Shown one piece after another: positions 2,399-20,404 of a stretch of 64,000 nucleotides of DNA (the first letter of the stretch is position 1; the number at the start of each line of letters is the position of its first letter). The notes beneath the pieces were generated by a model that was given only the letters and a program-made list of their open reading frames with translations, ran no database searches and was not told where the DNA came from. Made by a program: the position numbers and the translations under genes. Origin of the DNA: Pelagibacterium sediminicola (lineage in GTDB: Bacteria; Pseudomonadota; Alphaproteobacteria; Rhizobiales; Devosiaceae); NCBI RefSeq assembly GCF_003390885.1, contig NZ_QMEL01000003.1:1-64000 (forward strand), in the 5' to 3' direction.

Positions 2399-2914
2399 TT
2401 GCAGAGATTTTTCCAAGTCTTTCTAGCGATTGTACCGCTTTGCTTTCCGGTGATGGCGCAGGAGCACGGCCCCGATGCGCTGCCATTGCCCAAAGGCCCC
2501 CTGATTCTTGAGGTGGATGGCGCTCTTTCGCGCGGCAATCGGGACGGTGCCGCCCATTTCGATATGGAGATGTTGAAGGCGCTTCCGGTTGCCCAGCTTG
2601 AGACAAGCACCGCAGTGACCGACGGGACGCGCCGGTTCGAGGGCTTTCTGATGCGGGATCTGCTCGATCATGTCGGCGCACATGGGTCGAGCGTGACGGC
2701 CATTGCCCTTAACGACTACGCCATTGAGATCGATATCGAGGAGTTCGAGCGGTTCGATGTGCTCGTTGCCTACGAAATGGATGGCGAGGCGCTCCTGCCC
2801 AGCGACAAGGGGCCGCTCTGGATCGTCTACCCGCGCGACCGGCACAAGGAATTGCAGGACATCCGCTATGATTATCGCTGGGTGTGGCAGTTGCGGTGGC
2901 TGGAAATCCAATGA
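2399..2914 (+). CDS. periplasmic molybdopterin-domain-like protein, first gene of a two-component operon
   Basis: This encodes a 171-residue protein with a signal peptide (residues 1-20, ending FPVMA). The mature part resembles the oxidoreductase molybdopterin-binding fold (sulfite-oxidase/YedY type) in its order of segments: a beta-rich start (LILEVDGAL), a short RFEGFLMRDLLDHVGA stretch, and the closing WIVYPRDR and YRWVWQL motifs. The only cysteine is inside the signal peptide, so the mature protein lacks the cysteine that binds molybdenum in the catalytic members, and it is much shorter than those enzymes. It is therefore more likely a binding or sensing protein than an enzyme. Its stop codon overlaps the start of the histidine kinase gene (ATGA), which suggests that it works with that kinase. 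Confidence 0.75.
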   Translation: MQRFFQVFLAIVPLCFPVMAQEHGPDALPLPKGPLILEVDGALSRGNRDGAAHFDMEMLKALPVAQLETSTAVTDGTRRFEGFLMRDLLDHVGAHGSSVTAIALNDYAIEIDIEEFERFDVLVAYEMDGEALLPSDKGPLWIVYPRDRHKELQDIRYDYRWVWQLRWLEIQ

Positions 2915-4722
2915 GCAGGTTCGTGCGCGCACTGCTGGGTATAGCGCTGCCGGTGCTGACCATTCTCATATTTGTGCTGCTTCTGGCGTTTTCCCTGATG
3001 CGCCTTTCCGACATCGAAAAGGACATGCGGATCGAGGCCACCCAGAACATGCTCTGGGTGATCTCGCGCGCTCATATTGCCAGCCTCCAGTTGAGTGCAG
3101 CCGCTGCCGAACAGGCCGCGGGCGCTTTGGACGAAGAGTTGATGAAACTGCGCTACGATGTCTTTTTGAGCCGCATGGCATTGCTCGATGACGGGCCGCA
3201 ACGCCGGCGGATGGAAGAGCTTGGTTTCGCCCACGCTCTGGACGCCTTGCGCTCCAGCCTGCCGGAACTGAGTGGGCTGATGACGGACCTCACGCCCGAG
3301 AACCTGCCGCGCATCCAGGCGATACTTTTTCCTTACAACCGCGCGCTGGGGCAGGCGGGGAACAAGGCCATGGTGGCCGAATGGGACGGGTTGGGCAACA
3401 CGCTCGATACGTCGCGCGAGCAGCTCTGGCAGATCATCGTTTCGTTGATCGGTATATCGCTGGCAGGGGCTGCGCTTTGCGGGCACTTCCTTTGGGCGAT
3501 CCGCGACGCGCGGCGGCGCACGCGGCTTCTTGACAAGGAAAAGGCGTTCTCGGAACTGCTCATCGGGTCGAGCGGCGAAGGGATCGTGGCCGTCGACAAC
3601 CAGCGCCGCTGCACGGTGTGGAACGAGGCAGCCGAACGGCTGTTCGATCAACCCGCCAACAACACGCTGGGCCGTGCGCTGGCCGACATTTCCGGTTTTT
3701 TCGAGGTTGGCGTGATCGGAAAGGCCGTCGCCGCCGCGCTCGAAGGCCGTTCGGCTTCGCTGCTCGACCAGCCGTTCTTCGCGCCGAAACGGGCCGGGCC
3801 TCTTTACGTGGACCTGCGCTGCTTTTCGTTGCGCGACGGGGCGCGGATCATCGGGGCGATCCTGCTCATATCCGACGTTACGGAACGGCGCGAGGCGCAA
3901 AAGGAGATTGCCGACCACCGTGATCACCTCGAACAGCTCGTGGAAGCGCGCACCCGCGAGCTCGACGCGGCGCTTACCCGCGAGCGGGCAACCGCGGAAC
4001 TTTACCGTAATTTCGGTACGATGATCTCGCACCAGTTCCGTACGCCCCTGGCTATCGTCGATTCCGCGCTCCAACGCCTTATGCGGCGGCGCGACAGGCT
4101 CACGCCCGACGAAATTCTGGAGCGGGGCGGCAATGCCCGACAGGCGATCGCGCGGCTGACCGGATTGGTCGAAAGCACGCTCGATGCAGCCCGCCTTGAT
4201 GCAGGCCAGATCGAAATCCGCAGCAAGCCGTGCGACCTCGCCACCATTATCGCCGATATATGCGCCCGGCAGGCCGAGCAGACGCCGGGCCGGGCCATAT
4301 CGGTCGATATCGCGGAGGGGGGATCGACGTTGGCCTATTGCGATCCGATCCACGCGGAAAACATCCTCACCAATCTCGTGACCAACGCGATCAAATATTC
4401 GCCCGAGGACACGGAAGTGAGCATCACGCTTGCCGCCACCGGCGACGATGTGGAGTGCGTCGTCGCCAATAAGGGCGTATTGCAGAACGAGGAGGAACGG
4501 GAGGCGCTGTTCGAGCGATATTTCCGCGGCAGCAATGCGGAGGGCCGGCCCGGCATCGGCGTGGGGCTTTATATGGCAAGGGCGCTGGCGCGTCTGCAGG
4601 GCGGCGATGTCAGGCTATTGCATTCCGTATCGGGCACGGTGCAGTTCGCACTGTTGCTACCGTGTGCCGCGCGTCACCCCGGCGCGCTCAAAACCGCGCT
4701 ATTGGAGCAGGAGCCGGCATGA
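2911..4722 (+). CDS. membrane sensor histidine kinase with PAS domain
   Basis: This encodes a 603-residue sensor kinase. Transmembrane segments lie at about residues 8-32 and 171-195 and enclose a helical periplasmic region of about 140 residues. A PAS domain follows (about 210-325, with ITDVTERR-like ending SDVTERRE), then a coiled linker, a HisKA domain with the phospho-acceptor motif SHQFRTPL (histidine 374), and a HATPase domain with NLVTNAIKYS and GIGVGLYMA. The G1 position reads VVANKG, so the usual aspartate is replaced; similar variants exist in CusS-like kinases. The start at 2911 overlaps the stop of the preceding gene, and its stop overlaps the start of the response regulator, so the three are translationally coupled. 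An upstream in-frame GTG at 2884 lies inside the previous gene and is less likely. Confidence 0.92.
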   Translation: MSRFVRALLGIALPVLTILIFVLLLAFSLMRLSDIEKDMRIEATQNMLWVISRAHIASLQLSAAAAEQAAGALDEELMKLRYDVFLSRMALLDDGPQRRRMEELGFAHALDALRSSLPELSGLMTDLTPENLPRIQAILFPYNRALGQAGNKAMVAEWDGLGNTLDTSREQLWQIIVSLIGISLAGAALCGHFLWAIRDARRRTRLLDKEKAFSELLIGSSGEGIVAVDNQRRCTVWNEAAERLFDQPANNTLGRALADISGFFEVGVIGKAVAAALEGRSASLLDQPFFAPKRAGPLYVDLRCFSLRDGARIIGAILLISDVTERREAQKEIADHRDHLEQLVEARTRELDAALTRERATAELYRNFGTMISHQFRTPLAIVDSALQRLMRRRDRLTPDEILERGGNARQAIARLTGLVESTLDAARLDAGQIEIRSKPCDLATIIADICARQAEQTPGRAISVDIAEGGSTLAYCDPIHAENILTNLVTNAIKYSPEDTEVSITLAATGDDVECVVANKGVLQNEEEREALFERYFRGSNAEGRPGIGVGLYMARALARLQGGDVRLLHSVSGTVQFALLLPCAARHPGALKTALLEQEPA

Positions 4723-5360
4723 CGGCAGGGGATCACCTGGAGAAAAAGTGCGCCGTCATCCTCTGCATCGAGGATGAAGCGCAATTGCGCCGGGATATCG
4801 CCGATGAACTGGCAGAGGCCGGATATGGCGTTATCGAGGCCGGCAGCGGCGAGGAGGCACTCGCTATTCTCGATGAAACGGCTCCCGATCTTATCTTGTG
4901 CGACATCTCCATGCCGGGCCTCAATGGCTATGACGTTCTGGCGGCGGTGCAGGGGAAAGGGGCCGCCTATGCTGAAATCCCGTTCGTGTTCCTCTCGGCG
5001 CTTGCCGATCCCCGGCAGGTGGTCGATGGCAAGAAGCTGGGGGCTGACGATTATCTGGTCAAGCCGATCGATTACGATCTGTTATTGGCGACGGTTGGCG
5101 CGCGCCTGCGCCAGATCGAGCGCATCCGCGCCGTTTCGCATGCAGGGACGGCGGATACCGATACGCTTGCCAGCCGCTTCGGGCTTACGGCGACCGAAGC
5201 GCGCATCGCAAAAGCGCTGATGGACGGCCATCCTCTGGCTGATATCGCGAGGGATTTCAGCGTCTCGCGTACGACCGTGGCGTTTCATATGCGCAACATC
5301 TTCGACAAGACCGGTACGAACAGACAGGCGGCGCTTGTGTCGGTTTTGCTCAGGATATAG
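4719..5360 (+). CDS. response regulator, receiver plus LuxR-type HTH
   Basis: This encodes a 213-residue two-component regulator. The receiver domain (about residues 12-130) has the acidic pair EDE (18-20), phospho-acceptor aspartate 62 in LCDISMPGLNG, serine 93 and lysine 115 in LVKPID. The C-terminal part (about 148-210) is a LuxR/NarL-like helix-turn-helix with the typical GLTATEARIAKALMDG and SRTTVAFHMRNIFDKTG segments. The ATG at 4719 overlaps the stop of the kinase gene (ATGA), so it is certainly the partner of that kinase. It should act as a DNA-binding transcription factor once phosphorylated. Its targets cannot be read from the sequence. A longer frame opening at 4662 lies within the kinase gene and was not used. 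Confidence 0.93.
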   Translation: MTAGDHLEKKCAVILCIEDEAQLRRDIADELAEAGYGVIEAGSGEEALAILDETAPDLILCDISMPGLNGYDVLAAVQGKGAAYAEIPFVFLSALADPRQVVDGKKLGADDYLVKPIDYDLLLATVGARLRQIERIRAVSHAGTADTDTLASRFGLTATEARIAKALMDGHPLADIARDFSVSRTTVAFHMRNIFDKTGTNRQAALVSVLLRI

Positions 5361-20264: not shown

Positions 20265-20404
20265 CACCGCAGCACCCCTCACCCCCAGCCCCTCTCCCGC
20301 AAGGGGAGAGGGGGGCTCAAAAGCCGCAACATCCGCATGATTACCCTTCTCCCCTTGCGGGAGAAGGTGGGCTTTCGCGCAAGCGAAAGGTCGGATGAGG
20401 GGGG
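20265..20404. repeat. dispersed GC-rich hairpin repeat, family C
   Basis: The block holds a hairpin whose stem is cctctccc/ggggagagg with gcaa loop (about 20289-20312), a hairpin with 9-bp arms ccttctccc/gggagaagg (20345-20367), and a 7-bp hairpin with gcaa loop (20372-20389). It starts and ends with cccctcaccc/tgagggg-like ends that are inverted to each other. This composite repeat is a familiar kind in Hyphomicrobiales intergenic DNA. No gene is seen in 20236-20450. Confidence 0.8.

Follow-up and report, generated by a model that had tools for sequence, protein, structure and literature searches.

A PruR-type periplasmic protein, histidine kinase and LuxR-type regulator in Pelagibacterium sediminicola, with a candidate operator and a linked envelope gene module

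INTRODUCTION

What does a small exported protein related to molybdopterin oxidoreductases do beside a histidine kinase and a response regulator, when its mature chain holds no cysteine? The question is raised by three genes near the start of contig C38 of the 3.24-Mb genome of Pelagibacterium sediminicola, whose first 64,000 nucleotides (NZ_QMEL01000003.1, here called the window) were analyzed. A sequence-only reading had proposed that the exported protein is a sensory partner of the kinase rather than an enzyme, and had called its signal unknown. We consider it likely that the locus encodes a PruR-type pterin-sensing two-component system, whose regulator controls itself and an envelope module with a VWA protein through a palindrome; the ligand, the phosphotransfer and the DNA binding are deduced from sequence comparison, structure prediction and analogy.

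RESULTS

Sequence and predicted fold identify the exported protein as a PruR

The three genes lie on the + strand and, as had been read from the sequence, overlap by ATGA at both junctions: a pruR-like gene (2399 to 2914, 171 amino acids [aa]) with a TTG start preceded by GAGGAGG, a membrane histidine kinase gene (2911 to 4722, 603 aa) and a response regulator gene (4719 to 5360, 213 aa). They are presumably co-transcribed. The first product has a short hydrophobic leader, read by eye to end in VMAQE, and its sole cysteine, residue 15, lies within this signal-peptide-like segment, leaving the mature chain cysteine-free. The protein matched the Pfam family Oxidored_molyb (PF00174; E value 4.6e-8, 33.3 bits, cut-off 24). 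Among solved structures it matched 7kos (3e-34) and 7rkb (5e-28), and also 7kom and 7kp2. All but 7kom carry names as pterin-binding proteins; 7kom, named an Oxidored_molyb protein, is titled PruR of Vibrio vulnificus in the structure comparison. An AlphaFold model computed with 33 window and locus sequences (predicted local distance difference test score [pLDDT], 90.4) superposed on 7kos_D at 1.0 Å (template modeling scores of 0.83/0.96, 43% identity). In this fold comparison, sulfite dehydrogenases and the YedY-type enzyme 1xdq ranked far below PruR. The exported, cysteine-free protein with molybdopterin-oxidoreductase features described earlier is thus recovered as a SUOX-type fold, with PruR matched first and SUOX enzymes after it, rather than an unrelated fold.

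PruR acts in the PruA-PruR-DcpA pathway of Agrobacterium tumefaciens as the component that binds pterins in the periplasm, with a preference for tetrahydromonapterin; its pterin-site residues there are Asn102, Tyr104 and Trp160 (PMC13259868). Window residues N105, Y107 and W163 correspond to these; N105, W161 and W163 are kept in all 33 aligned sequences and Y107 in 32 of them. None of the 33 aligned relatives has a cysteine from window residue 33 onward, so the set holds no relative with the residue restored in its mature core. A wider set comprised 102 loci, namely the window, 80 named loci (L032 to L111) and 21 family loci (L165 to L185), with flanks of up to about 8 kb as far as the contig extends; one of them (L078) has a core cysteine. 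The window's genome contains one PruR match. Overall, both the sequence and the predicted fold identify the 171-aa protein as a PruR, with pterin binding as a predicted property. Calling the sensed signal unknown was too strong, because the ligand class of the PruR family (pterins) and its kinase-coupled versions have already been described (PMC13259868).

A candidate source of the ligand is encoded elsewhere in the genome. Among its 24 PF13561 matches, which are short-chain dehydrogenases/reductases (SDRs), a single one carries the pteridine-reductase motifs TGX3RXG and YX3K. This PruA-like SDR (L141; C43:148681-149367; TGAADRIG and YTLSK) passed the NCBIfam SDR model NF006597 (325.6 bits, cut-off 281) but did not reach the threshold for NF006598, the model named "pteridine reductase" (185.9 bits, cut-off 288).

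The kinase belongs to a clade in which the WX7E motif is mostly altered

The kinase has two hydrophobic helices (19-residue spans), starting at residues 7 and 172 of the 603-aa chain (16 and 181 in the 612-aa open frame), a periplasmic domain with WX7A, and Pfam matches to PAS, HisKA and HATPase_c, with H374 in SHQFRTP; the earlier description of a two-helix membrane kinase with a periplasmic domain holds. In the kinase model the periplasmic domain is helical, with a pLDDT of about 90; a VIA-align comparison of the whole model covered mainly residues 343 to 591 and so scarcely this domain. The combination of PruR with a kinase that has a DcpA-type periplasmic domain has been described as PruR-DTB (DcpA-TorS-BaeS type kinase), and "the vast majority" of these kinases carry WX7E in that domain (PMC13259868). 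A profile of 77 kinase N-termini, compared with the periplasmic part of one GGDEF protein encoded beside PruR in a genome of the same genus (a comparator other than Agrobacterium DcpA), scored 28 bits with the W aligned. This suggests that the kinase periplasmic domain is a distant relative of the DcpA-like domain of that GGDEF protein.

The window and the 80 named loci share the window's PruR type and are referred to as the clade. Across these 81 loci the last position of the motif is A in 61, S in 12, E in 7 and unread in one, and it is E in all of the other 21 loci. On a quick PruR tree the A/S state requires 5 changes, with the unread locus (L052) counted as E, and the clade branch is not among the starred branches (90). 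All 81 clade loci carry a DYRWVW tail and none of the other 21 does, a uniformity that is in part a product of selection, since the 80 named loci were found through a pattern over this tail (YDYRWVWQ). All counts keep near-identical loci (L033/L034/L035 and L090/L092).

The regulator and a distinct set of neighbor genes accompany pruR

The third gene encodes a receiver (D62) followed by a GerE/LuxR helix-turn-helix (HTH) domain, in agreement with the receiver-HTH regulator read earlier. A gene of this receiver-LuxR type lies within 7.5 kb of pruR in 80 of the 81 clade loci, and the sole exception (L066) is a 5.3-kb contig that ends directly behind the kinase gene; the triplet is therefore not a chance arrangement, and the sequence-only reading, which had suggested surveying neighboring genomes, finds its regulator conserved there. 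Many of the relatives' regulators are about 350 to 366 aa long (L057 9837-10934 and L046 10285-11367, among others), and the 213-aa form of the window lacks their additional stretch of about 140 aa.

Divergent from pruR is a gene for a 324-aa membrane protein (1236 to 2210, - strand), which we call MWDF after its first residues and regard as a predicted target of the regulator. It is followed by a gene for a 261-aa exported protein (261 to 1046, - strand), presumably SH3-like to judge from its NARxGPG motif, and a probable member of the same module. Neither protein had a match in Pfam or in NCBIfam. In 136 family genomes, PruR was found at 99 places in 66 genomes and MWDF matches in 57 genomes; counting 60 of the 71 MWDF match rows (11 fragment or weak rows were dropped), MWDF lies within 6 kb of all 13 PruR places with at least 55% identity and of 1 of the 86 below that value. 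Near pruR in the 81 clade loci were MWDF in 59, a VWA protein (at least 100 bits) in 49, the SH3-like protein in 27 and the regulator in 80, compared with 1, 1, 0 and 15, respectively, in the other 21 loci. None of the 20 canonical (WX7E) family loci had MWDF, VWA or SH3-like genes nearby, and a receiver-LuxR regulator (>300 bits) was near 14 of them. MWDF without PruR occurred at 19 loci, with VWA near 6 and SH3-like near 1. The window has no VWA gene between its MWDF and SH3-like genes.

Loss of WX7E was considered as a mark of the MWDF-linked type and rejected, as six of the seven E-type clade loci also have MWDF. By these counts, the MWDF linkage follows the PruR clade and not the loss of WX7E.

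Several further features of the loci were recorded. In six canonical WX7E loci (L166, L172, L173, L174, L177 and L180) the receiver-LuxR gene stands a few kilobases from pruR on the same strand and not behind the kinase gene. Proteins that we take to be flavin adenine dinucleotide (FAD)-oxidoreductase-like are encoded near 6 of the 20 canonical loci. Devosia faecipullorum (L033 128-10846) and Shinella daejeonensis (L035 658-11375), which belong to different families, share at 97.3% identity a 10.7-kb block that spans the entire triplet and its neighbors and points to recent horizontal transfer; 7.9 kb is 95% identical to a Mesorhizobium metagenome-assembled genome (L034). D. faecipullorum (G032) has two copies of the triplet.

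A conserved palindrome lies before the triplet and its neighbor genes

When 13 MWDF-pruR intergenic regions were aligned, a single strongly conserved block, CCCCnTTCAnnTGAAnGGGG, emerged. In the window it corresponds to the palindrome CCCCGTTCATTTGAAGGGGG (2264 to 2283, no strand), a perfect copy of the 20-bp form CCCC-N-TTC-N4-GAA-N-GGGG and a candidate operator of the regulator, situated between the divergent pruR and MWDF genes. Allowing up to 3 mismatches, the 64-kb window contains one match, and its shuffles average 0.32.

The locus searches used the relaxed form CCCCNTTCNNNNGAANGGGG, and tested promoters were defined as the 450 bases before pruR, MWDF, VWA, SH3-like and separate regulator genes. 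In the 81 clade loci (1,189,547 bases), 49 of 55 sites with at most 1 mismatch fell in tested promoters, which make up 8.4% of the bases, and the backwards pattern gave 0 sites; at up to 2 mismatches, 84 of 100 sites did so, and the control gave 7 sites with 2 in promoters. In a held-out set of 68 loci, from which 13 discovery loci or near-copies had been removed, 43 of 49 sites with at most 1 mismatch were in tested promoters (7.5% of bases), against 0 sites for the backwards control; the VWA rows of this set repeat one gene (L045, L064 and L105, each twice), and the VWA figure used below is per promoter. The box also occurs away from pruR, in 19 of 28 MWDF rows whose promoter is not shared with pruR and in 12 of 17 rows for separate regulator genes, each of these 12 coming from a locus already counted in the 19. 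No site with up to 2 mismatches was found in the 19 MWDF loci without PruR. The 20 canonical loci yielded 4 such sites, two of them before a PruR, and the control 1. One genome (G010; L225 9721-11942) has a short kinase without PAS and a regulator gene that is split off and divergent to MWDF, with the box between them.

The regulators fall into two main recognition-helix classes, typified by TTVAFHLRNLF (FH; TTVAFHMRNIF in the window) and NTVSYTLKNLF (YT), the latter accounting for 11 of the 15 regulators outside the clade. An operator with up to 2 mismatches was present in a tested promoter in 65 of 77 FH loci, 0 of 11 YT loci, 5 of 6 loci with other helices and 1 of 8 loci lacking a readable regulator.

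A search of the window's own genome recovers a VWA gene cluster

Whole-genome searches covered 33 chosen genomes, 13 with the MWDF-linked PruR type and 20 without; the 13 include G002, whose PruR is 51% identical and whose kinase has WX7E. Perfect sites numbered 6 in the linked genomes and 0 in the others, and sites with at most 1 mismatch 28 (control, 8) versus 11 (control, 14). Five of the six perfect sites are at a linked PruR locus, and two of the six (G000, the window's genome, and G084) belong to the discovery set. The sixth, in G036, lies 9 bases upstream of a 174-aa exported protein, taken at its longest open frame; behind it comes a frame joining a second exported protein to a VWA piece (60 bits).

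The window's genome has a comparable arrangement on contig C35. There, a site with at most 1 mismatch (C35:623406) lies 9 bases upstream of a 174-aa frame that shares 67% identity with its G036 counterpart. Behind this frame come another exported protein, an MWDF remnant (23 bits) and, cut off by the contig end, a VWA gene (644 bits). Searching this genome with the box thus led to the VWA gene that is missing from the window. The remnant itself is a decayed C-terminal piece of a second MWDF gene (L189 8516-8872), between two exported-protein genes and the VWA gene.

The relaxed box at two mismatches was not used in this genome, where it gave 45 sites (backwards control, 15), many being one repeated element. 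Separately, 15 places in the genome, window positions 20351 to 20370 among them, carry the 20-mer CCCCTTGCGGGAGAAGGTGG or its complement, which mimics the operator at two mismatches; this dispersed repeat, CCCCTTGCGGGAGAAGGTGG, is perhaps REP (repetitive extragenic palindromic)-like.

DISCUSSION

Other explanations of the locus

The protein might instead be a small SUOX-type molybdopterin oxidoreductase whose expression is controlled by the adjacent two-component system. The name of its Pfam domain and a fold common to sulfite dehydrogenases and YedY would suit such an enzyme, but the mature chain and all 33 relatives' cores lack cysteine, the nearest structures are pterin-binding PruRs, and the truncated PruR site is likely unable to take the molybdenum cofactor (PMC13259868). 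We reject this molybdoenzyme reading as extremely improbable; the role of sensory partner, proposed earlier, is judged the more likely one for a PruR family member without a molybdenum-ligating cysteine. A different possibility is that WX7A kinases no longer answer PruR-pterin, PruR being a leftover or serving another partner or ligand. In favor of this, the window has A in place of the E of WX7E, and 73 of the 81 clade loci have A or S there; yet PruR is kept beside the kinase with its pterin-site residues intact, and E-type and A-type loci share their neighbors. We regard loss of the response as improbable.

The palindrome could also be something other than the operator of this regulator, either a site bound by another regulator or an RNA hairpin. 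It is self-complementary with G+C-rich ends. The correlation with helix class is confounded by relatedness, because the YT class represents one bacterial family without the target genes, and 12 of the 77 FH loci have no operator at up to 2 mismatches. Opposed to this are the position of the box before the genes on both sides of divergent pairs, with no T-run after it in the window, its company with MWDF, VWA or regulator genes that stand apart from pruR, and its absence from MWDF loci that have no PruR. On this evidence a role other than operator seems unlikely, although less so than a loss of the kinase response.

The two points just given on helix class and missing operators count against a pterin-sensing system acting through this palindrome, and so do several others. 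The window kinase departs from WX7E (W49-x7-A57), and its contact with PruR may therefore differ or be lost. At least one match with up to 3 mismatches arose in 29 of 100 window shuffles, a figure in which perfect matches are not told apart. The box, at up to 2 mismatches, precedes pruR in 53 of 81 cases and MWDF in 38 of 59, but VWA in 7 of 41 and the SH3-like gene in 1 of 27, counts to be read with the frequent location of VWA and SH3-like genes downstream of MWDF; of all 30 separate regulator genes, 12 have it upstream. The only site with at most 1 mismatch in G032, as in G067, lies elsewhere than at the triplet, and three of the five such sites in the window's genome (C35:331431, C41:169643 and C43:115548, the last inside a coding frame) have no evident meaning.

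Proposed mechanism and significance

The mechanism that we propose for the PruR-type system builds on the Agrobacterium pathway (PMC13259868) and on general two-component biology. A reduced pterin made by the PruA-like reductase would reach the periplasm and load PruR, which would dock on the periplasmic helices of the kinase and set its kinase versus phosphatase activity. Phosphate would then pass to the regulator, and the phosphorylated regulator would bind the palindrome. The window box would serve both the pruR-kinase-regulator genes (autoregulation) and the divergent MWDF gene, and the C35 box the exported-protein genes and the VWA gene. Since the box stands before envelope-type genes, the predicted output is transcription of the envelope VWA module and not cyclic di-GMP (c-di-GMP) turnover.

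With somewhat less assurance, we favor a broader proposal, that an alpha-, beta- and gammaproteobacterial pterin-sensor clade, partly spread horizontally, operates without c-di-GMP: PruR would drive a kinase and a dedicated regulator that reads the 20-bp palindrome and controls an exported VWA/membrane-protein/SH3-like module, with an altered WX7A/S contact between PruR and kinase. If this is correct, an envelope system would have its transcription set directly by extracytoplasmic pterins. Which functions pterins control is described as an open area, and the review passages covered name no transcriptional target of DTB systems (PMC13259868); with a box, a regulator and a candidate target set named, the output of a DTB-like system becomes testable. 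The change of WX7E in most of the clade offers a natural variant for probing how PruR docks on its partner.

The sequence-only reading was right in direction and is partly supported. Its idea of a sensory triplet stands, as PruR with a kinase; its core is not novel, the PruR family and kinase-coupled PruR-DTB having been published (PMC13259868), and the palindrome and the conserved divergent neighbors were absent from it. Three things appear new here, on sequence evidence: the WX7A/S clade, the VWA module linked to it, and a predicted operator that led, in a search of its own genome, to a VWA cluster. The portion of the literature searched yielded no description of the WX7A/S change or the palindrome, and overlap with Greenwich 2024 PNAS, Feirer 2015 mBio or their supplements is possible.

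Comparison with known systems

SUOX-family molybdoenzymes (sulfite dehydrogenases and YedY/MsrP) have the same overall fold as the window protein but possess a molybdenum-ligating cysteine and a much longer chain. NarL/FixJ-type response regulators share the receiver and GerE HTH of the window regulator, which matched the NCBIfam FixJ and NarL models below their cut-offs; no named NCBIfam equivalog fits it, and many of its relatives differ by the extra stretch of about 140 aa between the two domains.

PruR-DTB systems are nearer: they share PruR and a kinase that has PAS, HisKA and HATPase domains and a probably related periplasmic domain (PMC13259868). They differ in having WX7E where the window has WX7A, and the receiver of the window, unlike theirs, is encoded by a separate regulator gene with an HTH domain. 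The window system adds the linked MWDF/VWA/SH3-like genes and the palindrome, which the review passages covered do not mention for PruR-DTB (PMC13259868).

The PruA-PruR-DcpA pathway shares the PruR fold and pterin-site residues, a gene order in which pruR lies directly upstream of and overlaps the gene for its membrane partner, and a PruA-like reductase, which the window's genome likewise encodes (PMC13259868). In Agrobacterium the partner is a GGDEF-EAL protein, whereas in the window a histidine kinase takes this place, together with a separate LuxR-type regulator, and the output changes from c-di-GMP turnover in PruR-DcpA to what we predict to be transcription in the window system (PMC13259868).

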